Virus record (IMG/VR): IMGVR_UViG_3300029267_001875
Coordinates: 1 to 23,537 of that record
Source: a virus
Reading direction: 5' to 3' (one strand)
DNA length: 23,537 nt
Position numbers and translations under genes: made by a program
Shown here: positions 9,562 through 21,160 of the stretch, piece after piece
How positions within the stretch are numbered: position 1 is the first letter of the stretch
How the letters are laid out: every line of letters starts with the position of its first letter
The notes under the pieces: generated by a model
Told to the model about the DNA's origin: nothing
What the model saw: only the letters and a program-made list of their open reading frames with translations
The model's database searches: none

Positions 9562-10758
9562 ATGCCTATTGTTGTCGAACACCAGCCAGCCGGGGTCGCC
9601 GTGGGATTGGCGGCGTATGCGAGTGGCGTTGGAAACGCCCGGGAGCGGTGGCGTAAGCAAATGCTCGACCGTCTCGCGGAACAACAGGCCCAGGAACGGG
9701 AGATGGACTTTCGTCGCGAGATGCAGGAGGATCGCTTCGAGTTCGAGGGCATGTTGGCGGGAGAGCGAATGGCGTCCGATGAAGGGCTCCAGGAGGCAAT
9801 GTTCAGGGAACGCCGGGAGGAAAGCGACCTGGACGCACGGCGACGAAGGGCGGACTGGCGTCGTCGCGAGGCCGGGTCGATCACGGAGGACAGTCTTCTC
9901 AGCGACCGGAACAAGGAGCGTGAAAGGCAGATTCTGGACGAGATACAGGAGATCGACGGCGATCGGTACGAGACTCCCGAAGACAAGCAGGCTGCTATCG
10001 AAGCGCTCCAGGAAGAGCGCCGCCGTCTTCACGAGGAGAGTCCGCGAAAGCCCACCTTGGAAGAGGAAATTGCCGAGAGAACTAAGAACTACCCGGACTG
10101 GATGAAGGACCTCCCGTGGAACCTGAAGGACGGCGTCCTCAGCTTGCCCAGCAACATGCCGGACTCGCCCGAGGAACTTCAGCGCGAGCGAGACGAGAAG
10201 CAACGCCAGGCCCAGTACGATGAGGATATCTTTCAGTGGGAGGCGGCCGAGAAACAGTGGGAGGATGCCCGGGACAAACGTCGGCGATACGAGGACTGGT
10301 TGTGGACGCTTCCGAAAAACGAGGGCGCGAGCTTCGACGAAATCGATGCCCAGGTCGAGGAGAGGTATGGGCCGCTCGGGGACAGACCTAGACCCCCGCG
10401 TCGGACGTCGATGGGGCCGGGGGCGTGGAGTGTGACGCGGGGTGCCGCGGTCGCTATGGCGGAGGGGTTTGGAGGGTTTGGGCCGACGAGGCCACAGGAA
10501 GGCCCCGAGGGCGCGCCTCCAGTGGAGCCTGAGCAGGTAGAGCCTGAGCAGCAGGACGTGAATGAAGTCGTTCCGCTCAGCGCCGAGGAGCTACGGAACC
10601 GTTTCAGGGAGACGAATAATGCATATAGAAGACCTGTGACGAGCAGTGTCACGGGCACGTCCCAGCAAGCTGCACCACTAACCCGGGCGGAGTATGAGGC
10701 TTTGCCGTCCGGTGCAATCTTTGTTGACCCGAACGGAGTACGGAGGAGAAAGCCATGA
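9562..10758 (+). CDS. Charged helical internal virion protein candidate
   Basis: 398 residues; ATG 9562 follows a GGAGATA element at 9551. After a short hydrophobic start (VAVGLAAYASGVGNA) the residues from ~25 to 255 are a highly charged helix (ERWRKQMLDRLAEQQAQERE and many Glu/Arg pairs), likely coiled coil. A Pro/Glu-rich linker follows at ~290-335. The C-terminus has LTRAEYEALPSGAIF followed by DPNG and a basic tail, an ending I recall from phage proteins encoded next to ejection proteins. It lies immediately before the giant polyvalent protein, whose ATG overlaps its stop region, so the two are probably co-packaged in the head and ejected together. No enzyme motif is seen. Confidence 0.6.
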   Translation: MPIVVEHQPAGVAVGLAAYASGVGNARERWRKQMLDRLAEQQAQEREMDFRREMQEDRFEFEGMLAGERMASDEGLQEAMFRERREESDLDARRRRADWRRREAGSITEDSLLSDRNKERERQILDEIQEIDGDRYETPEDKQAAIEALQEERRRLHEESPRKPTLEEEIAERTKNYPDWMKDLPWNLKDGVLSLPSNMPDSPEELQRERDEKQRQAQYDEDIFQWEAAEKQWEDARDKRRRYEDWLWTLPKNEGASFDEIDAQVEERYGPLGDRPRPPRRTSMGPGAWSVTRGAAVAMAEGFGGFGPTRPQEGPEGAPPVEPEQVEPEQQDVNEVVPLSAEELRNRFRETNNAYRRPVTSSVTGTSQQAAPLTRAEYEALPSGAIFVDPNGVRRRKP

Positions 10759-13700
10759 GCCGGGTGCAAGACGAGTGGTGGCTGGAGGCTCCAGTAGTCG
10801 AGAATGTCGCTGACGAGTGGTGGCTGGAGGCTCCTGTTGTTGGTGATATGGTCGAGCAGCCGAAGCAGCCTCCCCCACCCCGGTCATTCATCCAACGCGG
10901 CATGGACCACATGCGCGATACGGCCGTGGTGACCGCCAAGGGAGCACTCGGCGTGCCCCAGGCGATCACGGGCATTGCTGACATGATACCGATTACCGAA
11001 GCGATCCCAGGGCCTCCGGGCTTGAAGAGTGTCGCCAAAGCGGCTGCAACGCAAGCCGGGCTGCCCGTCCATGGCTGGCCTGGATGGATGCAGGAGAGGC
11101 TAGGAATCGACTACGAGGGGGCGCAGCAAGTTCTTCACAATGCGTACAGCGCCGAGACACAGGCGGCCCATCGGAACGTGGCTGATGCGGAGGGGGTGCT
11201 AGGTAAGATCGACGCGGCGCTACGAAACCCACGCGCGATTGCCACGACGATTGGCGAATCCATCCCGCTTATGGCCGCCGGTGGTGCTATCGGTCGTGCG
11301 CCCGCGCTGGGAAAATACGGCTATGCCATTGGGGAAGGGCTGGTGTCGGCTGGCTCTGGGGCGGAGCAAACCCGAGCCGAAACACCGGGCGGACTCTTGA
11401 GCGGAAAGCAAGCAGCCATACACGCCGCGAGCGGAGGTCTGACGGGGGTGGTGGGCGTCTTGGGTAGTAAGCTGGCTTCCAGGCTGGGGATTGAAGACAT
11501 CGATGTCTTGATGGCCGGTGGCGCCAGTGATCCGGCGAAGCGCAACATCCTAATCAAGACGTTGGCGGGAATGCTGGTCGAAGGTGGGGCCGAGGAGGGG
11601 CCCCAGTCCATTCAGGAACAGATCGCGCAGAACTTAGCCACGGGCAAGCCATGGTATACGGGCTGGGATCAGGCTTGGGTGATGGGGACGATAACGGGCG
11701 GTGTAATGGGTGGTGGGACAAACCTGATGACCAGCTTGGCCGATCTCCCCCACACTCCCACTCGCAGGGAATGGGCCAAGGCGGTGTTCGGCGACATTTC
11801 CAGGTACAGGGAGGCCCCGAGTAGAAAGGTACGACGAGAACAGTTCAAAGCCGCGAAACAGGAGGCAGCAAGCCGTGTACGAGTTGACGCCCCAGCAGCA
11901 AGCCGAACTGGAATGGATCGAGGAGTTGTCCCGGCGGCAAACGAGGGAAATGTTCCTGCACGCCCTCCGGTCACGCCAACTGAAGAGGCTGGCCAACCAT
12001 CGGGCGAAGAACGTGGTGCTGAACCGGCGGATGCTGGAGTCGAACCCGAGGGACGGACGGGAGTAGCTGAAAGGACACGGGTAGAGAAACAGGTCAAGGG
12101 CGTCTTTGGGGAGGAGGAGGGGGCTGCCGGCATGGCCCTCATGGACGCCCACGCAGGCGTTTGGGCGAAGGCCACGGGACGGTCGGCGGATGAGTGGTTC
12201 AGTAGGGTTGCCGCAGTCGAGAAAGGCCAAGAGGACGATGTGTCGGAGACGGCGCTTCTACACTCCGCTTTCCACGGCAGCCCGCACAAGTTCGACAAGT
12301 TCACGCTGGATAATATCGGGACCGGCGAAGGAGCCCAGGCGTATGGTTGGGGGCTGTACTTTGCGGACAGTGAGTCGGTAGCGCGGTTCTATCGCGATAA
12401 GCTTGGGGGCGGATGGCTGCTGGACGGGAAGCCGATTGCGGAGATGGCGCTAGACAGGGACACCCTGTCGGAACTCAACAGGGCTAGGGCGTTTGTTGGC
12501 AAAGACGAGACGATTGATGATGCGATCAAGCGTGTACGCCAGGAACGCAAGGAACGCCAGAAGGCGGAACGCAGCGGGGAGGAGGGGCCCAGTGGGTGGA
12601 CTGAAGATCTACTGGCGGCCGAAAAGGCGATGAAGAAGTATCGGTCGCGGCTGACCCGCAGCAAGGGTAGTCTCTATAAAGTCGATCTTGCCCCTTCCCA
12701 GGAGGAGTACCTGCTATGGGACAAGCCGCTGAGTGAGCAGAGCGAGAAGGTCAAAAAAGCGCTGCGCGAAGTGTTTCCTGATGGTTCCGGAATAGACAAG
12801 GCTTTTCTTGCCAAGCAGCCTGAGGCGAGTAGAAAGTGGTGGGAGGCTCAAAAGACTTATCTCGAGGGCGTGTGGGGACAGACTGGAGAACAGTTTTACA
12901 CAGGCCAAATAAACAAGTTCTACGAGACAGTTGAGACGGAGGTAAACGCGAAGTCTGCCGCAGAGTGGGCATCCAAGTCGCTTCACAAAGCCGGCATCCG
13001 CGGCATTAAGTATGCCGACCAGGACAGCCGATTCGCTCCCCCAGGGCAAATGCGTTATCGGGTTCGATGGAGCGAGGACGGCACGAAGCCGGAAGTCTTC
13101 GAGGTGGCGACGGGCCAGGCACTCGACAGGCAGTTTGCCACATTCGCGGAAGCTGACGAGTGGATCGCCAGCCAGGAGCAGGAGTCGGACCGCACCCACA
13201 ACTACGTCATTTTCGACGACGCTGATATAGCGATTGAAGAGGTCTTGGAGTCTCGCCGGCGAGGCAGGGTCACGGGTGCCGTGCAGTTTGCCGAAGATGG
13301 CCGAGCAACGATCGTCGCCTTCCAGCGTGGGGACGTAGCTACCCTGGTGCATGAGGTAGGGCACATCTTTCGGCGGTCCATCGGTGAAGTAGACGCGGAC
13401 CTGCTATCGCGGGCCGAGAGGGACCTGGGAGTCACTGACGGCAACTGGACTGTTGAGGCTGAAGAGGCGTTCGCCGGTGGGTTCGAGCGGTATCTGCGTG
13501 ATGGAAGGGCGCCGACCGCGACATTGACGAAAGTGTTCGAGCAATTGCGGGATTGGTTGCTGGCTATCTATTCAGCCATCAGGGGGACGGCTCTTGAGCG
13601 AAACGTGTCGCCGGAGTTGCGTGGCGTGTTCGACCGAATGCTGGGCGGGAAAGCGGCCCCAGCGTCCCCTCAGACGCCTCCGCCGCTCCCTGGGGTGCCG

Positions 13701-16700
13701 GGCGGCCCTGGAACGGTCTCGACCCAGAACGCCTACACGCAGGCCCAGAGGGCCGTTCACGGGATGAACCCCAAGGCCCCCGTGGTCACCCGCGAGTGGG
13801 TCAAGCTTCACGGCCAGGCCATGGCTATGTCCGACGCGGAGGTGACGAAGGTCGTTGACGAGTTGCGGAATGACCCGAAGTCAAGCAGCGACCAGCGAGA
13901 ATTTGTGCTCCTGCGACGGATGAACGAAATTGAGAATCAACACGCCAGTGCCGTTTCGAGCGGTGACATGCCAGCAGCAGCAGCAGCGGAAGCGCAGTTG
14001 GTGGACATCTACACGATAGCCGAAAAGGTCGGCTCCGAGGAAGGCCGGGCTCTCAACGCTCGCAAAGCTTGGATAAGGGACGACAATTCCCTCTTGGGGT
14101 CGATTCGACGGGCCACGAAGAAGAACGGGCGTCCACTCACGGAGATCGAGCGTCAACAGTTGGTTGAGCGCAGGCAGGAACTGGACGCCCTGGAAGCGGC
14201 ACTCGCGGAGAGGGAGCGTCAACAGGTTGAGGCTGCTGCCGAGCGGACGGTGTCCGAGGCGGTGGCCAAGCGGCAGGAGACGCTCAAGAGCCGGTACGAG
14301 AAAGTGGTTAACGCCATTCTCGACGCCTATGGGATCACGGGTGTCACTTTCGCTAACGTTGAGGCGGAGGCCAAGCGACGGGTGAGTGAGGAGGCTGAGG
14401 CGGCCAAGGCGTACAACTATGCTTACCGACAGGCTGCCAAGGCCACGGGCTTGTGGCCCAAGGTAATCGACAAGATTGAGGACGGTCAGCTTGTGGCCCC
14501 TAGTGGACGGCCGTATGACATCAACGAATATGGTCGCCTGGACGAAAAGGCTCCCATGCTGGCAAGGGAGTACCCGGAACTTGGGATTCAATCCACGCCA
14601 GCCGATGCGGAGCAGACGGGCAACGAGGCGGCTGACCTCGTGAAGGTGCTCAAGCGGGGAATCCGCCACGTTCCCGGGTGGCATGAAAAGCTGGACGAGG
14701 TTGCTCACGCGCTGGTGGCCGAGCGGGGCCGGGAGTTGCCCCTGGGTTTCAGCCTGGAACGGGAGGTGACGCAGGCGGACAGGGACTTCGAGGGCAGGGG
14801 TCTCGATGAATCTGAATCCAGCACCGTCGACGATGCCGGCTTCGACTGGGGGACGGGCACACAAATGCCTCCAAGGGGTGGCAAGCCTAAGCCACTCACG
14901 GCGAAGGAGAAGGCCGAGCGGGCCGGGCAACGGCTCAAGGAAGCGTCAGCGGAGCTCCTAGACTCCTTGGTCGCCCTGGGACCGTTGAAATTTGCCGAAC
15001 CGGCGGACACGGTTCGCAGGTACGATCGTTTCCAGGCAGCGCTGGCTGACGCGGCTCTTGCCTGTATCGAGTACGGCATTCGCAGCTTCAACGCGGCAGT
15101 GGTACGGCTTACGGCTGACATGGGGCGGCGCATGACGCCGATGGTCCGCGAAGCTTTTCGTAAGGAATGGGACGCCCTTGTCGGTGAGGGGGTGATTCCG
15201 TCGCCCGTAATCGACCCGAACGACGACAGCGAATTCAGTGAGCACGCCCAGAAGGTACTCAGTTGGGTCGTTCAGTCTGGAGTGACGGACACGCAGCAGG
15301 CTCTTGACGAGGTCCATGCGGAGCTACAGACCATTCGGCCTAACATCACCCGCGAGGAGTCGGGGAAGGCGGCGTCTGGCTACGGGCAATTCAAGCCACT
15401 AAACAAGGATGCGGTGTCTCTGACAAGGCGTCGAATCAGGGGCGAGCTTCAACAGCATTCCAAGATAGACGACCTGGAGAGGGCCATTGCGGAAGCTCAG
15501 CGACTCAGGGCCGAGGGAAAGTCAGAGGCCGAGATAGCGGAGGCAATCAAGGAGTTCTTGCCGAAGAAGACCGGTGTCGAACGACGCACACCAGAACAGG
15601 CCGAGCGGGAACTGATCTCGCAGGTCGAGGACCTGAAGAAGGAGATTCCCGTTTCGACGGAGGGGACCGAACGGCAACTCAAGACCCGCCTGGCGACCGC
15701 CAAGACGGCCGTGCTGAACCAGATCGAGAACCTGGAAGCCGGTAGGCCGGGGAGAAAGCCGCGAACGCCTGGACCAACTGATGCCGAGCTTGAGGCTCAC
15801 CGGAAGCGGCGGGACAAGCTACAGGCGGCCTACGACGAGATGAACCCGCGGGACCGGAAGAAACGCACGCCGGAGCAGGAAACCAAGGCTACGTTGCGGG
15901 GTCTGGACCGGGCAATCGAGGATCTGGAGGGGGACTTGGGGCGGGGCTACGTCGGTCGCCCGGGCAAGCCGGTGTCGCGAACCAGCCCGGAAATCGACGC
16001 CAAGCGGAAGAAACTGGCGCGATTGAAAGAACTGCGCGAGGAGATACGCGAACTGGACCCCGAATTTCAGAAGGACGAGTATGCCCGGCGTCTGGCGGCC
16101 CGGAAGCAGATGCTGAAGCGGAAGCTGGCGGCCTACGAGGACCGGTGGGCGCGCAAGGATTTCGCGAAGAAGCCCGTGAGGAGGTCTCCGGAGGATGAGG
16201 AGACGTTGAGGCTCCGGCATCAGATCTCGGAAGCCAACAAGCGCCAGCGCGCGGCGGAGGACCGAATTGCAAGGGCCAACCGGCTGATGCGAGAGAAGAT
16301 TGCCGTGGTGCCGCTTGACGTGTCCCGCACCATAAAGAGTGTCTGGTCATCTGTCGATGCGTCATTCCTTTTGCGGCAAGGGGTCTTGGTCGCGGCGGGG
16401 CATCCAATCAGGGCCGTGCAGCAGCAGGGGCGAAGTCTCCGCGCGGCTCTGTCCGACAAGGAGTTCTTCGCCTTGCAAGAGGGGATTGCGGCTCGGGACA
16501 ACGCGAGGTCGGGGCTCTACGGCCGGGCAAAGCTTGAGCTACTTGATATCTCCGGCCCCTTAGTTTCTCGCTCGGAAGAGTACCAGTCCACGTTCGTCCA
16601 AAAGATTCCCTATATCGGGGGGGCCATTAAGGCTTCCGAGCGCGCCTTCGTGGCCCAGGGCAATCAGATGCGGGCGGACTTGTTCGATTCCATGATTGCG

Positions 16701-17516
16701 ACGATGGCGATGGACCCGGGGAACGTAAGCGATGCCGAGGCGAAGGCGATTGCCAATTACGTAAACATAGCAACCTGGCGGGGGAATGTGGCTGGGTTTG
16801 AGCAAACGGCTGCGCAACTGGGTGCCGTGATATGGACTCCTCGCGGGGTGGTCTCACGCTTCCAGTACCTTTTTGCTCAACCGCTCTTGTGGCCGGCGTT
16901 CAGGGGCCGACTGTCCGGGCGGGCGGCGAAGGTCATTGCATGGGAGTACGGCAGGACCTTAGCGGGAATGAGCATCTTCTACGGCACGTCGGCTGCGATG
17001 CTTCTCGCGGCCTTTGGGACCCCAGGGGACAACGAGGAGCGGGACAAGTGGAATATCACGTTCAACCCGTACAGTCCGGACTTCGGAAAGGTGCGGATTG
17101 GACGCACGCGGATCGATCCGATGGGTGGTCTGTCGCAGGTAACGAGACTGACTACGCGGGAGTCCACCAACGCCGTCAACGCCCTCTATCAGCTTTTCGG
17201 AGGGAGGCCAAGCAAACAAGCGAAGGCGGACATGAAGGACACTTTGTCGATCGCTGGAAGGTTTCTTCATCAGAAGTTCGCACCGGCGGCATCGATGGTC
17301 ACGGAGATTATGACCAGTGAGGACTATGACCGCGAGCAGGTCACCTTGGGGGGGGTAGCCGCCAAGGCCGTGCGTCCAATCATTTTTGAGGACGTCTACA
17401 CGAGCATCAAAGAGCATGGGGTCCCTGAAGGTATGGCATTGACGGTCCTGGCCATATTCGGGATGGGGCTCACCTACCACGAGCCTGAGCGGCCACCCCC
17501 CCAGAAGTGGCGATAG
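10755..17516 (+). CDS. Giant polyvalent internal/ejection protein: ART-like, zincin and C-terminal LPD domains
   Basis: 2253 residues. The N-terminus has a tandem 14-residue repeat with DEWWLEAPVV twice. Residues ~40-345 match a conserved phage region with Gly-rich, membrane-active helices (IPLMAAGGAIG, TGVVGVLG, TITGGVMGGGTNLM). A disordered linker (~370-440) covers a nested ORF. Residues ~500-830 are ADP-ribosyltransferase-like, as found in polyvalent proteins (HGSPHKFDKF at H507, AYGWGLYFAD, then GIRGIKYAD and NYVIFDDADI). Residues ~850-960 are a zincin, HEVGH at 866-870 with a likely third ligand in EEAFAGGFERY (E904 or E911). Long coiled coils fill ~1100-1840. Residues ~1850-2250 match the large polyvalent-associated C-terminal domain (FGKVRIGRTRIDPMGG), with one hydrophobic segment near 2070. 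Known polyvalent proteins travel with the DNA and protect it or modify host targets; that role is inferred here. Confidence 0.8.
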   Translation: MSRVQDEWWLEAPVVENVADEWWLEAPVVGDMVEQPKQPPPPRSFIQRGMDHMRDTAVVTAKGALGVPQAITGIADMIPITEAIPGPPGLKSVAKAAATQAGLPVHGWPGWMQERLGIDYEGAQQVLHNAYSAETQAAHRNVADAEGVLGKIDAALRNPRAIATTIGESIPLMAAGGAIGRAPALGKYGYAIGEGLVSAGSGAEQTRAETPGGLLSGKQAAIHAASGGLTGVVGVLGSKLASRLGIEDIDVLMAGGASDPAKRNILIKTLAGMLVEGGAEEGPQSIQEQIAQNLATGKPWYTGWDQAWVMGTITGGVMGGGTNLMTSLADLPHTPTRREWAKAVFGDISRYREAPSRKVRREQFKAAKQEAASRVRVDAPAASRTGMDRGVVPAANEGNVPARPPVTPTEEAGQPSGEERGAEPADAGVEPEGRTGVAERTRVEKQVKGVFGEEEGAAGMALMDAHAGVWAKATGRSADEWFSRVAAVEKGQEDDVSETALLHSAFHGSPHKFDKFTLDNIGTGEGAQAYGWGLYFADSESVARFYRDKLGGGWLLDGKPIAEMALDRDTLSELNRARAFVGKDETIDDAIKRVRQERKERQKAERSGEEGPSGWTEDLLAAEKAMKKYRSRLTRSKGSLYKVDLAPSQEEYLLWDKPLSEQSEKVKKALREVFPDGSGIDKAFLAKQPEASRKWWEAQKTYLEGVWGQTGEQFYTGQINKFYETVETEVNAKSAAEWASKSLHKAGIRGIKYADQDSRFAPPGQMRYRVRWSEDGTKPEVFEVATGQALDRQFATFAEADEWIASQEQESDRTHNYVIFDDADIAIEEVLESRRRGRVTGAVQFAEDGRATIVAFQRGDVATLVHEVGHIFRRSIGEVDADLLSRAERDLGVTDGNWTVEAEEAFAGGFERYLRDGRAPTATLTKVFEQLRDWLLAIYSAIRGTALERNVSPELRGVFDRMLGGKAAPASPQTPPPLPGVPGGPGTVSTQNAYTQAQRAVHGMNPKAPVVTREWVKLHGQAMAMSDAEVTKVVDELRNDPKSSSDQREFVLLRRMNEIENQHASAVSSGDMPAAAAAEAQLVDIYTIAEKVGSEEGRALNARKAWIRDDNSLLGSIRRATKKNGRPLTEIERQQLVERRQELDALEAALAERERQQVEAAAERTVSEAVAKRQETLKSRYEKVVNAILDAYGITGVTFANVEAEAKRRVSEEAEAAKAYNYAYRQAAKATGLWPKVIDKIEDGQLVAPSGRPYDINEYGRLDEKAPMLAREYPELGIQSTPADAEQTGNEAADLVKVLKRGIRHVPGWHEKLDEVAHALVAERGRELPLGFSLEREVTQADRDFEGRGLDESESSTVDDAGFDWGTGTQMPPRGGKPKPLTAKEKAERAGQRLKEASAELLDSLVALGPLKFAEPADTVRRYDRFQAALADAALACIEYGIRSFNAAVVRLTADMGRRMTPMVREAFRKEWDALVGEGVIPSPVIDPNDDSEFSEHAQKVLSWVVQSGVTDTQQALDEVHAELQTIRPNITREESGKAASGYGQFKPLNKDAVSLTRRRIRGELQQHSKIDDLERAIAEAQRLRAEGKSEAEIAEAIKEFLPKKTGVERRTPEQAERELISQVEDLKKEIPVSTEGTERQLKTRLATAKTAVLNQIENLEAGRPGRKPRTPGPTDAELEAHRKRRDKLQAAYDEMNPRDRKKRTPEQETKATLRGLDRAIEDLEGDLGRGYVGRPGKPVSRTSPEIDAKRKKLARLKELREEIRELDPEFQKDEYARRLAARKQMLKRKLAAYEDRWARKDFAKKPVRRSPEDEETLRLRHQISEANKRQRAAEDRIARANRLMREKIAVVPLDVSRTIKSVWSSVDASFLLRQGVLVAAGHPIRAVQQQGRSLRAALSDKEFFALQEGIAARDNARSGLYGRAKLELLDISGPLVSRSEEYQSTFVQKIPYIGGAIKASERAFVAQGNQMRADLFDSMIATMAMDPGNVSDAEAKAIANYVNIATWRGNVAGFEQTAAQLGAVIWTPRGVVSRFQYLFAQPLLWPAFRGRLSGRAAKVIAWEYGRTLAGMSIFYGTSAAMLLAAFGTPGDNEERDKWNITFNPYSPDFGKVRIGRTRIDPMGGLSQVTRLTTRESTNAVNALYQLFGGRPSKQAKADMKDTLSIAGRFLHQKFAPAASMVTEIMTSEDYDREQVTLGGVAAKAVRPIIFEDVYTSIKEHGVPEGMALTVLAIFGMGLTYHEPERPPPQKWR
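10770..10834 (+). repeat. Tandem 42-nt repeat encoding DEWWLEAPVV twice
   Basis: A 23-base identical segment occurs at 10770-10792 and 10812-10834, 42 nt apart, so the protein begins with two copies of a 14-residue unit carrying DEWWLEAPVV. The core bases are identical while the flanks differ, which suggests a recent or selected duplication. Trp-rich acidic repeats at the front of an injected protein could be a packaging or scaffold-docking tag. Confidence 0.85.
11875..12066 (+). CDS. Nested 63-codon ORF in +1 frame inside the polyvalent gene
   Basis: GTG 11875 is preceded by a perfect AGGAGG at 11860-11865 with a nine-base spacer. The product begins VYELTPQQQAELEWIEELS and continues as a basic amphipathic helix (RSRQLKRLANHRAKN), stopping at TAG 12064-12066. 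By hand count about 54 of 63 codons end in G or C, against about 24 of 63 in the overlapping main frame, which there encodes only a low-complexity Ala/Pro/Glu linker. The ORF fits exactly between the membrane-active region and the ART region of the large protein. No family is recognised. It may be a real overlapping gene, or an older separate gene bridged when its neighbours fused. Confidence 0.5.
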   Translation: MYELTPQQQAELEWIEELSRRQTREMFLHALRSRQLKRLANHRAKNVVLNRRMLESNPRDGRE

Positions 17517-17535
17517 CCAGTCTTGCTTTCTTTCT
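17508..17535 (+). terminator. Weak candidate terminator after the virion module
   Basis: A short TGGC-GATA-GCCA hairpin (17508-17519) lies over the stop of the polyvalent gene and is followed by a pyrimidine-rich stretch (TCTTGCTTTCTTTCTC). The stem is only four base pairs and the tract is interrupted, so it would be inefficient. It overlaps the -35 of the next promoter. Confidence 0.2.
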
Positions 17536-17551
17536 CGGCGGGTGGTACTAT
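17523..17551 (+). promoter_or_regulatory. Sigma-70 promoter for a leaderless XRE gene
   Basis: TTGCTT at 17523-17528, a 17-base spacer and TACTAT at 17546-17551, with TG at 17543-17544 forming an extended -10. Transcription would start about seven bases on, at 17558, which is the A of the repressor's ATG. No ribosome-binding site precedes that ATG. Together this points to a leaderless mRNA. Confidence 0.7.
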
Positions 17552-17557
17552 ACACGT

Positions 17558-17854
17558 ATGACGAATCCCGCCCCGATAGAAGAAGACGAAGGCCAGATTC
17601 AAGAGTCTCTTGTGCAGACCTTCCGGGACAATGTCCAGTTTGTGCGGGACTACCGTGGATTTTCTCAATCTGAGTTCGCCCGTAGATTGGGCCGATCGCC
17701 TGGCTACGTGTGCGACATCGAACACGGCCGCCGTAGCCCAAATCTGACGACCGTCGCGCTGTTTGCAAAGGCATTGGGCATCGAGGCGTCTCTTCTTCTT
17801 TCCGAGGACGTCTCGCTCCTCGTGGACACGGCGCTCGCGTCCGAGCCCGAATAA
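17558..17854 (+). CDS. XRE-family HTH repressor (leaderless)
   Basis: 98 residues. I chose ATG 17558 rather than an in-frame start at 17507, because the promoter -10 ends at 17551 and the longer form would overlap the previous gene and add a hydrophobic leader not seen in repressors. Residues ~22-82 are an XRE/Cro-C1 helix-turn-helix: FRDNVQFVRDYRGFSQSEFARRLG, then SPGYVCDIEHGRRSPNLTTV and KALGI. The acidic N-terminal (residues 1-20) and C-terminal tails are unremarkable. It sits alone between the virion and recombination modules with its own promoter, so it probably controls the downstream operon promoter at 17890-17918 or host promoters. Leaderless translation suits early low-level expression. 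Confidence 0.8.
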   Translation: MTNPAPIEEDEGQIQESLVQTFRDNVQFVRDYRGFSQSEFARRLGRSPGYVCDIEHGRRSPNLTTVALFAKALGIEASLLLSEDVSLLVDTALASEPE

Positions 17855-17924: not shown

Positions 17925-18038
17925 GCTGAGGACGTGACGGGTCGTGTGAGGCTAGGCTACGGAGTAGCTAGACGTCACGTCGGAAGGAACTCGCCCGGCT
18001 GAGCAAGACGCGAGGCCGGGCTGAAGGAGGGAACCGTA
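17925..18038 (+). promoter_or_regulatory. Structured leader RNA with GGA-triloop hairpin, candidate CsrA autoregulatory element
   Basis: An outer stem pairs GACGTGAC (17931-17938) with GTCACGTC (17974-17981). Inside it, CTA-GCTAC (17952-17960, bulged G at 17955) pairs with GTAGCTAG (17964-17971), leaving GGA (17961-17963) as the whole loop. A third stem pairs GCCCGGC (17993-17999) with GCCGGGC (18015-18021). GGA also occurs at 17930, 17982, 17986 and twice in the ribosome-binding site AAGGAGGGA (18024-18032). Known CsrA proteins bind GGA in hairpin loops and block the ribosome-binding site. Feedback by the downstream protein is therefore likely but inferred. Confidence 0.6.
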
Positions 18039-18410
18039 ATGCTAGTTCTTTCGCGCCGACGCGGCGAGTGGGTGACTGTCGAGGGCCCCTGCCGCGTCGT
18101 TCTGGTTTCTCTAAACGGCGACACGGCACAACTCGGCTTCGAGGCCGAGCGTTCCGTGACGATTCTTCGCGAGGAGGTGCCTCGACGGCCAGAACCGCTA
18201 AGCGATAACGACTTCAAGTACCCCGAAATGGCGAGGGTCCTTCAGGCCGTGCCCATGATTCAGTGGCGGCGTTGCTGGAAGTGTAATCAGGTGGACCTCT
18301 ATCGTGACAACATGCTGCCGGCGTGCCGCTGTCATGCGTGCGGGTCGGCAGACACTCGTATTATGCGGGAGGAAAGCGCCCTGCTGCATGGGAGGAAGGA
18401 TTCAGAATGA
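18039..18410 (+). CDS. CsrA-like RNA-binding protein fused to a C-terminal zinc ribbon
   Basis: 123 residues; ATG 18039 follows AAGGAGGGAA. Residues 1-47 match CsrA: MLVLSRRRGEWV at the front and VTILREEV at 40-47, keeping L4, R6, R7, R44 and E45-E46, the positions that bind GGA RNA in E. coli CsrA. Ordinary CsrA stops near residue 60. Here residues ~50-75 form a linker and ~79-101 a zinc ribbon: C79-W-K-C82 and C96-R-C98-H-A-C101-G. CsrA represses translation by covering ribosome-binding sites; the ribbon could add RNA, ribosome or protein contacts. It opens the recombination operon, and its stop overlaps the exonuclease start by ATGA. The CsrA half is secure; the function of the fusion is unknown. 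Confidence 0.8.
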   Translation: MLVLSRRRGEWVTVEGPCRVVLVSLNGDTAQLGFEAERSVTILREEVPRRPEPLSDNDFKYPEMARVLQAVPMIQWRRCWKCNQVDLYRDNMLPACRCHACGSADTRIMREESALLHGRKDSE

Positions 18411-19405
18411 GCGATGATTCAGAACGGGCCGCATGGCTTGCTGAAAGGGCGACCGGCATAGGTGGCAGCGATGCCGCCGCCGTTTGCGGGATGTCGCCGT
18501 GGAGTACCCCGCTGGACGTGTATATGTCCAAGGTCGGGTATCTCGACCAGGTGGGCCAAGGGCGAGATGACGAGACGACCGACATGCGGCGGGGTACGTT
18601 GCTGGAACCGGTGGTCCTCCAGATGTACACAGATGAGACGGGGAGGGTGGTCCGGACCCCGGAAAAGACCTACGTCAATCCAGAGCATTCGTTCGTTCGC
18701 GCGAATCTGGACGGAATATGCCTCGCGAACACGGTGGGGATTGAGGCTAAGACGGCTCGGAGACGACAGGGGTGGGGCGAACCGTGGTCGGCTGAGGTTC
18801 CAATGGTCTATCTATTCCAGGTGCAGCATTACATGTTGGCGACGGGCTTGCAGGTGTTTCACCTGCCGGTGCTGTTCGGTGATTTCAAGTTTGAGATCTA
18901 CGAGGTCGAGGCGGACCGGGAGTTCCAGGAATTGCTCCTGGAGCATGAAGCCCGGTTCTGGGCGATGGTCGAGGCCCGCACGCCCCCGGAGCCAGTGAAC
19001 GATGCGGACGTATCGAAGCGCTGGCCGGTCAGTAAACCCGAGGGTCGCAAAGCAACTCAAGAGGACTTGGAGGTCGGCGGGCACTTGCTGGCCGTACGGG
19101 GCTATTTCAAGAACCTTGAGGCGGTGAAGAAATCTCTTGAGGCCGAGCTAAAGCGGTCCATGGAGGACGTCGAGGCGCTGGTCTGCGGCAATGAAACAAT
19201 CTGCACCTGGAAGACCGCCAAGGGAACGACTCGATTCGACGCCAAAAAGTTTCGGGCCGACCACCCGAAGCTGTACGAACAATACAGTTACGAGTCCGCC
19301 CCGAGTCGGACGTTTTTGTTCAAGGAGAAAGCCAAATGTCTGGAGATCATGCGACCGCTGCTACAGGAGAACCTGTTGCCGGGCAGGAAGTTGATCGGGC
19401 AGTAG
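18407..19405 (+). CDS. YqaJ/lambda-exo family phage exonuclease
   Basis: 332 residues from ATG 18407, overlapping the csrA-like stop as ATGA, with GGAGGAAGGA upstream; the open frame back to 18323 lies within that gene. Family motifs are clear: GIGGSDAAAVCGMSPWSTP (residues 17-35), RGTLLEP with E67, RANLDG with D102, the ExK pair E113-A-K115, and QVQHYMLATG (138-147). These form the PD-(D/E)XK nuclease core that degrades the 5' strand of double-stranded DNA ends. The C-terminal third (~220-332) is helical and charged. The gene for a probable annealing partner follows two genes later, so the pair likely forms a recombination system for genome end repair or concatemer formation. Confidence 0.88.
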   Translation: MSDDSERAAWLAERATGIGGSDAAAVCGMSPWSTPLDVYMSKVGYLDQVGQGRDDETTDMRRGTLLEPVVLQMYTDETGRVVRTPEKTYVNPEHSFVRANLDGICLANTVGIEAKTARRRQGWGEPWSAEVPMVYLFQVQHYMLATGLQVFHLPVLFGDFKFEIYEVEADREFQELLLEHEARFWAMVEARTPPEPVNDADVSKRWPVSKPEGRKATQEDLEVGGHLLAVRGYFKNLEAVKKSLEAELKRSMEDVEALVCGNETICTWKTAKGTTRFDAKKFRADHPKLYEQYSYESAPSRTFLFKEKAKCLEIMRPLLQENLLPGRKLIGQ

Positions 19406-19768: not shown

Positions 19769-21160
19769 ATGAGTAAAGACAAGCTATCTACGGAAATCGC
19801 TCCCCAGCAGGGCTCTGGCGGTTTCATGACGCAGGCCCGGGACATGGGCATACCGCCCTCCGTTTTGGCCGAGCAACAGCGGGCCAAGACCGAGATTGAG
19901 GCGGCCCTTACTGTTGCCGCGTCCATGCCGCGGGACGAGAAGCGAGCCATGGATGCTATCCTGGTCAGTTGCCAGAGGGAGGGTCTTGCTGCCAAGTCTC
20001 AGTACCAATACAGCCGTGGTGGGACGGACATATCCGGGGCGAGCATCGTTTTGATGGAAGCGATTGCCCAGCGGTGGGGCAATATCGATTTCGGCTTCCG
20101 CGAGTTGTCCCGGTATCCCGCGAGGGGCAAGGAGCCTGGCCAGTCGACGGTTGAAGCCTATGCGTGGGACCTGGAGAGCAACACACGGCGCAAGGTTCAG
20201 TTCACCGTCGAGCACGCGATGAAGGCAAAGGGACGGGTAAAATTGCTGACCGACCCTCGGGACATCTACGAATACGTGGCCAATCAGTCGCAACGGCGTG
20301 TGCGAACTTGCCTGGAGAACATCATCCCCCGGGATATCGTGGAGGCGGCATGTGAGCAGTGCAACGAGACGCTCAAGGCCGAGATCAAGGACGTGAAGGA
20401 ATCGACTCAGAAGATGCTCCAGGCGTTTGCTGATCTCGATGTCACGCAGGCGATGGTCGAGGCGCGGATTCAGCGGCATCTTGAAGCCATCACTTCGGCC
20501 CAGATTATCAGCCTTCGGAAAATCTACACTTCCATCAAGGACGGCATTTCCTCGGCTGAGGATTGGTTCGATATGAGTGAGGCGGAGGCGAAGCAGGAGA
20601 AGACGACGGTAGCTGACAAGGCCAAGGAGGCGATGCGGAAGAAGGCCGACGAGACTGCACCCAAACAGGCCAGAGATGAAACACCGTCGTCACCGCAAGC
20701 CGCGGAGCGGGAGCACATCAAGGTGGCCATAGAGCAGGCGTGCGACGAGATGGGTAAGGTGGAGACCATCGACGAGATCAAGGCGGTAGACTCGACTTTT
20801 GCCGCCCGCGAGGATGTGACCGACGCGGCCAAGCGGCTCGTACACGCCACCGCTGGGGCCAGAATCAAGGAGTTGGAGTTGTTTCCCTCTCCTCAAGAGG
20901 AGCCCACGTCCGAGGCAAAGACCGAGAAGCCAGAGCCCGAGAAGACATCCACGAAGCCCAAAGAGGAGCCCGACACCCCCGACTGCGCCGAGCAGGTGGC
21001 ACAGTGGCTCGTGGACCTCGAGGAAGTCGAGACGATTCGTGGTCTCAAGCAGGCTAGGGAGGGTATTCCGGCGGCGTGGCCGGAGGATGCGAAAGAGATG
21101 ATCCGGGCCAAGATCAACACGCGAATTGACAAGCTCCGGGGCACCAAGGACGGACAATAA
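19769..21160 (+). CDS. Phage recombination protein, probable ssDNA-annealing partner of the exonuclease
   Basis: 463 residues. Residues ~35-210 match a phage family I recall next to exonucleases: AMDAILVSCQREGLAAKSQY, RGGTDISGASIVLMEAIAQRWGN, DFGFRELSR, VEAYAWDLESNTRRKVQFTV, LLTDPRDIYEYVANQSQRR and LENIIPRDIVEAA. The order resembles annealing proteins of Erf/RecT-like modules, though it is not RecT itself. Residues ~225-250 are helical. From ~325 two diverged helical repeats appear, sharing (K/E)VETI-x2-(I/L)K, joined by a Pro/Glu/Lys/Thr linker (~395-420). Start ATG 19769 follows CGGAGA. Annealing is inferred from context and recalled similarity, not a visible catalytic motif. Confidence 0.7.
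   Translation: MSKDKLSTEIAPQQGSGGFMTQARDMGIPPSVLAEQQRAKTEIEAALTVAASMPRDEKRAMDAILVSCQREGLAAKSQYQYSRGGTDISGASIVLMEAIAQRWGNIDFGFRELSRYPARGKEPGQSTVEAYAWDLESNTRRKVQFTVEHAMKAKGRVKLLTDPRDIYEYVANQSQRRVRTCLENIIPRDIVEAACEQCNETLKAEIKDVKESTQKMLQAFADLDVTQAMVEARIQRHLEAITSAQIISLRKIYTSIKDGISSAEDWFDMSEAEAKQEKTTVADKAKEAMRKKADETAPKQARDETPSSPQAAEREHIKVAIEQACDEMGKVETIDEIKAVDSTFAAREDVTDAAKRLVHATAGARIKELELFPSPQEEPTSEAKTEKPEPEKTSTKPKEEPDTPDCAEQVAQWLVDLEEVETIRGLKQAREGIPAAWPEDAKEMIRAKINTRIDKLRGTKDGQ

Follow-up and report, generated by a model that had tools for sequence, protein, structure and literature searches.

The window analysed here, a 23.5-kb IMG/VR record (23,537 nucleotides), contains a phage gene in which an N-terminal CsrA domain is followed by a cysteine-rich C-terminus resembling a zinc ribbon. 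This architecture raises three questions: whether the two parts are a single protein, where the ribbon comes from, and what a phage CsrA would do with it.

The fusion gene and its two halves

The 123-aa protein is encoded by one open reading frame, as the preliminary description had proposed (Table 1). Its start ATG is preceded by a good Shine-Dalgarno sequence (AAGGAGGGA). G+C content by codon position stays in one high-low-high phase across CsrA part, linker and ribbon, and stop codons are present in both other frames of the linker. Because one phase crosses the junction and the other frames of the linker are closed, the fusion is a single coding unit. This continuity also makes a frameshift-made fusion unlikely, and frameshift error was rejected as its origin on that ground. 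There is no convincing Shine-Dalgarno sequence at Met73 or Met64, from which the ribbon might be translated on its own. Judged from the sequence, the in-frame fusion is real.

Table 1. Coordinates of features in the window and of paired CsrA and ribbon genes in four Planctomycetota loci
Sequence	Feature	Position	Strand	Basis
Window	Polyvalent-type protein, 2,253 aa, two genes upstream of csrA	10755-17516		Weak ART-PolyVal match
Window	HTH_3 regulator, upstream of fusion	17507..17854	+	Pfam; tblastx to L002, 54% identity
Window	Leader stem-loop, outer stem GACGTGACG/CGTCACGTC, enclosing inner GGA hairpin	17931..17981	+	RNA folding
Window	Inner hairpin GGCUAC-GGA-GUAGCU, candidate CsrA site	17955..17969	+	ACGGA at 17959
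Window	Further ANGGA sites at 17984, 18024 and 18028	17984..18032	+	Last two overlap Shine-Dalgarno
Window	csrA-zinc ribbon fusion gene, 123 aa	18039..18410	+	Single ORF, codon-phase continuity
Window	CsrA domain, residues 1-48	18039..18182	+	PF02599 match, alignment, Foldseek CsrA hits
Window	Linker, residues 49-72, short helix 62-70 predicted (AF2)	18183..18254	+	G+C by codon position 0.71/0.42/0.71, in phase
Window	Zinc ribbon and tail, residues 73-123	18255..18407	+	Alignments, family matches, permutation test
Window	RecE/YqaJ-like exonuclease	18407..19405	+	Pfam YqaJ E 9.9e-31; phrog_434 RecE-like E 3e-79
Window	phrog_3657 protein, same early region	19769..21160	+	Order common to window and sibling phage
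L141	CsrA / ribbon	6870 / 8506
L153	CsrA / ribbon	13061 / 8908
L154	CsrA / ribbon	2434 / 7919
L155	CsrA / ribbon	7405 / 9291

That an error of assembly or sequencing joined two separate genes is very improbable. The fusion is represented by one sequence (n = 1) from one metagenomic contig, and the ancestral genes were probably separate, both of which would suit an artefact. However, there is no frame break, the other frames of the linker are closed, and the junction with the downstream exonuclease gene is the same as in a sibling phage. An artefact would also need to create a 24-codon in-frame linker. The concern raised in the preliminary description, that assembly had made the fusion, is not borne out by any sign of an assembly or frameshift origin.

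The whole 123-aa protein has no close relatives in IMG/VR, INPHARED or plasmids. The preliminary description had called for a search for CsrA proteins with C-terminal cysteine pairs; relatives of the ribbon were recovered as separate genes, and a second CsrA-ribbon fusion was not. The motif scans for such a fusion (a CsrA start plus CxxC...CxxCG) covered 84,980 genomes and IMG/VR and part of the possible spacings, with the first CxxC at approximately residues 74-84 in genomes and 63-84 in viral contigs; they required CxxCG as the second knuckle and ATG-CTN as the start, and other layouts may escape them. A PADLOC search returned no match.

The gene belongs to a phage and its N-terminal half is a CsrA domain. 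The Pfam CsrA model (PF02599) matches residues 1-48 (positions 1-48 of 53) with 43.4 bits (E 3.4e-11; cut-off 27). The RNA-binding residues L4, R6, R7 and R44, which had been described as intact, are all present, and relatives keep them as well. M1, L2, L4, R6, G33 and R44 are invariant across an alignment of 22 CsrA sequences, one of which is the fusion protein itself. The fusion is like CsrA/RsmA over residues 1-48 but differs in its C-terminal ribbon. Against the NCBIfam equivalog TIGR00202, it scores 35.9 bits versus the 70.1 required. By this rule, the fusion would not be classed as an orthologue of cellular CsrA, and a score so far under the cut-off marks its CsrA half as a divergent paralogue.

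In the AF2 model, pLDDT is approximately 88-93 in the CsrA core, 76-90 in the ribbon blocks and 64-67 in the linker. The pTM is 0.39, and the placement of the core relative to the ribbon is not fixed by the model. The best Foldseek matches are CsrA chains (probability 0.98-1.0, E approximately 0.02-0.1), in agreement with a CsrA fold. The fusion protein would be expected to dimerise.

The operon and its leader

The fusion gene is followed by the exonuclease gene, the ATG of which overlaps the fusion-gene TGA (ATGA). Further downstream are genes for an ASCH protein and for a C5 DNA methyltransferase. In the closest phage found (G001/L002), the csrA, exonuclease and phrog_3657 genes follow one another in the same order, with an HTH regulator likewise upstream. 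Its exonuclease is 66-67% identical to that of the window, and its gene has the same ATGA overlap with csrA. The CsrA of this sibling is a plain 61-aa protein without a ribbon in exactly the place of the fusion, so the ribbon is not needed at this csrA position.

Similar positions recur elsewhere. CsrA genes occur upstream of YqaJ exonucleases (L026/L028 and L027), beside an exonuclease gene in Vibrio phage VvAW1 and, in F116 and phi297, upstream of genes for nuclease and recombination functions. In Planctomycetota prophages, the CsrA gene is upstream of replication-initiation-like genes. Phage csrA is therefore a recurrent gene of early replication/recombination operons. The phage assignment made in the preliminary description holds, and two points go beyond that description: csrA heads a recombination operon in a position common to the sibling, and the ribbon is a phage module that already exists elsewhere, as a separate gene in CsrA-carrying elements.

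CsrA dimers bind GGA in hairpin loops, often over the Shine-Dalgarno sequence, and translation is repressed. The leader of the fusion gene contains a predicted stem-loop with an inner hairpin of this type, in which the GGA lies in the loop with an unpaired probability of 1.0. The leader contains four ANGGA sites in 140 nt, the highest count among 18 gene leaders and one equalled or exceeded by 0.8% of the 140-nt stretches of the window; Shine-Dalgarno sequences by themselves raise such GGA counts. Folding of the whole leader is not exceptional (z-score -1.64). These leader features suggest that csrA is probably autoregulated through its GGA-loop leader.

The zinc ribbon family and its association with CsrA

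The ribbon contains two groups of cysteines, C79-x2-C82 and C96-x-C98-x2-C101. The predicted zinc ligands are C79, C82, C98 and C101, which are kept by relatives, and these four would bind zinc. Relatives do not generally share C96, although L141 has a cysteine at that position and none at C98. The predicted ribbon fold has Foldseek matches, with weak E-values, to the Pirh2 C-terminal domain, the Rpb12/P-type subunits of RNA polymerase and eL40, and the ribbon profile weakly matches aIF2-beta and S27e. Matches of the ribbon in Pfam, PHROG and NCBIfam are all sub-threshold. The ribbon is absent from the CsrA models of these three collections, in line with the earlier claim that it is foreign to known CsrA.

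Relatives of the ribbon share the motif (R/K)CW.C...P...C..CGS.DTR (also given in the form CGSQDTR), which the fusion also carries. The fusion scores 89.6 bits in the A7 ribbon model, of which it is itself a member. Separate relatives are present in L122, L125, L126, L141, L153, L154 and L155, with invariant cysteines and CGS.DT(R). The first three are the real relatives among seven hits of a motif scan of viral contigs. Because the scan had fixed some residues, similarity was assessed by permutation on the remaining ones, and p ranges from 1e-5 to 2e-4 per relative. The L141 ribbon, from a Planctomycetota genome, was first found by an unbiased whole-protein search and later matched the ribbon profile with E 1.7e-12. 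It lacks a clear start codon and could be a decayed gene.

Searches of additional Planctomycetota with the profile recovered the ribbon from three genomes (G423, G580 and G366). The family is rare: 5/398 genomes of the class match at E <= 0.001 in the Planctomycetota searches, and one of the ribbons (G242) is short and interrupted by a stop. Three other hits were rejected, a ribbon-like one as a different, endonuclease-like protein (G049) and two as antisense or chance frames (G083 and G172).

Outside the fusion, the ribbon is always N-terminal in its own protein and the tails are unrelated. In relatives with a clear start, the start Met is approximately six residues ahead of the first cysteine. 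In L122, L125 and L126, it is 6-7 residues ahead and aligns with Met73 of the fusion, which places the fusion junction, by alignment, at the putative ancestral start Met of the ribbon. In L126, another phage, positions 2127-2438 encode the ribbon together with a Lar-like restriction alleviation domain (PF14354, E 4.5e-10), and the ribbon is therefore a mobile module. In L149, it heads a protein with a long coiled-coil-like tail. Just upstream of the separate ribbon gene of L122, positions 134-967 encode a protein made largely of CSGCSDC-like tripeptide repeats. By sequence comparison, the ribbon belongs to a small, apparently undescribed family of phage and prophage zinc ribbons that existed before the fusion.

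The separate ribbon is accompanied by CsrA. Each element in which a separate ribbon was found also encodes a separate CsrA (7/7); of the four Planctomycetota elements, three belong to one order, so the seven are not independent events and the association may mirror the gene content of a phage group. In every one of the four Planctomycetota ribbon loci, a CsrA gene lies on the same strand within approximately 5.5 kb (Table 1), and 3/3 ribbon-bearing viral contigs encode CsrA, at distances of approximately 3, 7.5 and 40 kb; this sample is small, and Planctomycetota genomes carry many CsrA paralogues. As controls, CsrA is present in 0/5 Planctomycetota stretches with an exonuclease and without a ribbon and in 1/12 phage contigs sampled through neighbouring genes, and a CsrA query matched 92/50,697 INPHARED records.

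Many CsrA-like genes are present per Planctomycetota genome (e.g., G013, G167 and G306), with nine Pfam matches in G013; in several others, a first look gave 13-21 candidates each. The CsrA proteins of the four Planctomycetota loci in Table 1 contain an extra proline-containing insertion near residue 15 (e.g., TVPPSNLPRQIV). Some insertion-bearing prophage CsrA genes adjoin replication-initiation-like genes. The insertion-bearing proteins are possibly a subfamily of Planctomycetota prophages.

Genes that are separate in some genomes and fused into one protein in another form a Rosetta-stone pattern, which serves as a guide to functional partnership. CsrA and the ribbon fit this pattern, being separate in seven elements and a single protein in an eighth, which suggests that phage CsrA has a working partner in the zinc domain.

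Neutral read-through, in which loss of the csrA stop codon extended the frame into an adjacent ribbon gene, would give the same protein. The halves would then keep unrelated functions and the fusion would mean little. The single occurrence of the fusion, the low AF2 confidence of the linker and the ribbon-less CsrA of the sibling phage all agree with read-through, as does the promiscuity of the ribbon, which heads other proteins (L126 and L149). Set against this are the presence of CsrA together with the separate ribbon in every one of the seven elements and the intact frame and conserved residues of both halves. On balance, read-through is rather unlikely.

Comparison with known systems and a proposed role

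Phage CsrA proteins are already known; the combination of CsrA with a zinc ribbon is new, and a literature search turned up no CsrA described with a zinc ribbon. A parallel in layout is RsmM/Bci of phages phi297 and F116 (phrog_5527), a phage CsrA that likewise has 123 aa and a long extension at its C-terminus and is encoded upstream of nuclease and recombination genes. Its extension, however, is without cysteine pairs (phi297) and without similarity to the ribbon of the fusion. The phrog_5527 model matches residues 1-50 of the fusion only, and the extension is not shared. The RsmM/Bci extension has been proposed as a protein-protein scaffold (PMC7366521).

The CsrA homologue gp28 of PTXU04 (Xuquatrovirus) is a 66-aa protein without a ribbon, and its gene adjoins lysis genes. 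Knock-down of this homologue leads to smaller plaques (PMC11879866). Both PTXU04 and the window encode a giant polyvalent-type protein near csrA, of 2,198 aa and three genes away in PTXU04 and of 2,253 aa in the window. RsmQ of plasmid pQBR103 is also a CsrA homologue on a mobile element, but it is plasmid-borne and a ribbon is absent from its description. RsmQ takes global control of host translation (PMC9928087).

In Planctomycetota, CsrA is also N-terminal in chromosomal multidomain proteins (L120 and L119), as it is in the window fusion, but these have a C-terminal response-regulator receiver where the window fusion has the ribbon. The L120 gene (474-1250, in G085) matches Response_reg with E 1.3e-19 and CsrA with E 8e-15; that of L119 (G013) begins at approximately 478. 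A literature search found no paper on such a fusion, and its domain content suggests a phosphorylation-controlled CsrA. The separate ribbon proteins (L122, L125, L126, L153, L154, L155 and L141) have a ribbon like that of the fusion, but it is N-terminal, the tails vary and CsrA is separate.

It is reasonably likely that the fusion regulates translation as a phage CsrA-type protein encoded first in an early operon, with the CsrA half acting on GGA hairpins and the ribbon adding a second contact. A temperate-phage-type CsrA would be the first gene product of an early recombination operon (csrA, the RecE-like exonuclease and further genes), with its C-terminus fused to a ribbon that, in other phages and prophages, begins a protein of its own and accompanies CsrA in the same element. 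The CsrA half would dimerise and bind GGA-containing hairpins in early phage mRNAs. Its own leader would be among the targets, with sites that overlap the ribosome-binding site. The protein would thereby repress or time the translation of csrA and of the exonuclease coupled to it, and possibly that of host mRNAs. The two ribbons of each dimer would make a second contact with RNA, the ribosome or a partner protein, sharpening affinity or target choice. Dimerisation, zinc binding, autoregulation, the RNA targets and the contact partner of the ribbon are all inferred.

The ribbon could also be an antagonist or switch of CsrA, in the manner of the protein FliW for some cellular CsrA, folding back on the RNA-binding face or sensing zinc or redox state, so that phage CsrA would be freed when needed. 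CsrA is known to have dedicated protein partners, and the PDB matches include FliW-CsrA structures (5dmb). The ribbon also co-occurs with CsrA. A permanent tether, however, would need relief in cis, and the ribbon shows no similarity to FliW, its weak fold matches being to nucleic-acid and ribosome ribbons; an antagonist is accordingly improbable. The same matches favour an RNA- or ribosome-contacting accessory. A tentative proposal, less firmly held than the regulatory role of the fused protein, is that the ribbon is a dedicated accessory of phage CsrA, usually separate and here fused, giving a two-part translational regulator in which the ribbon provides a second RNA or ribosome contact.

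CsrA genes recur in phages, which raises the question of how they act without merely duplicating host CsrA. Fusion to a ribbon that otherwise travels with CsrA as a separate gene points to a specific CsrA partner. If the two-part regulator is true, phages could use it to set up a regulon other than the one governed by the numerous CsrA paralogues in Planctomycetota hosts. The question is thereby reduced to two small proteins and one RNA leader.
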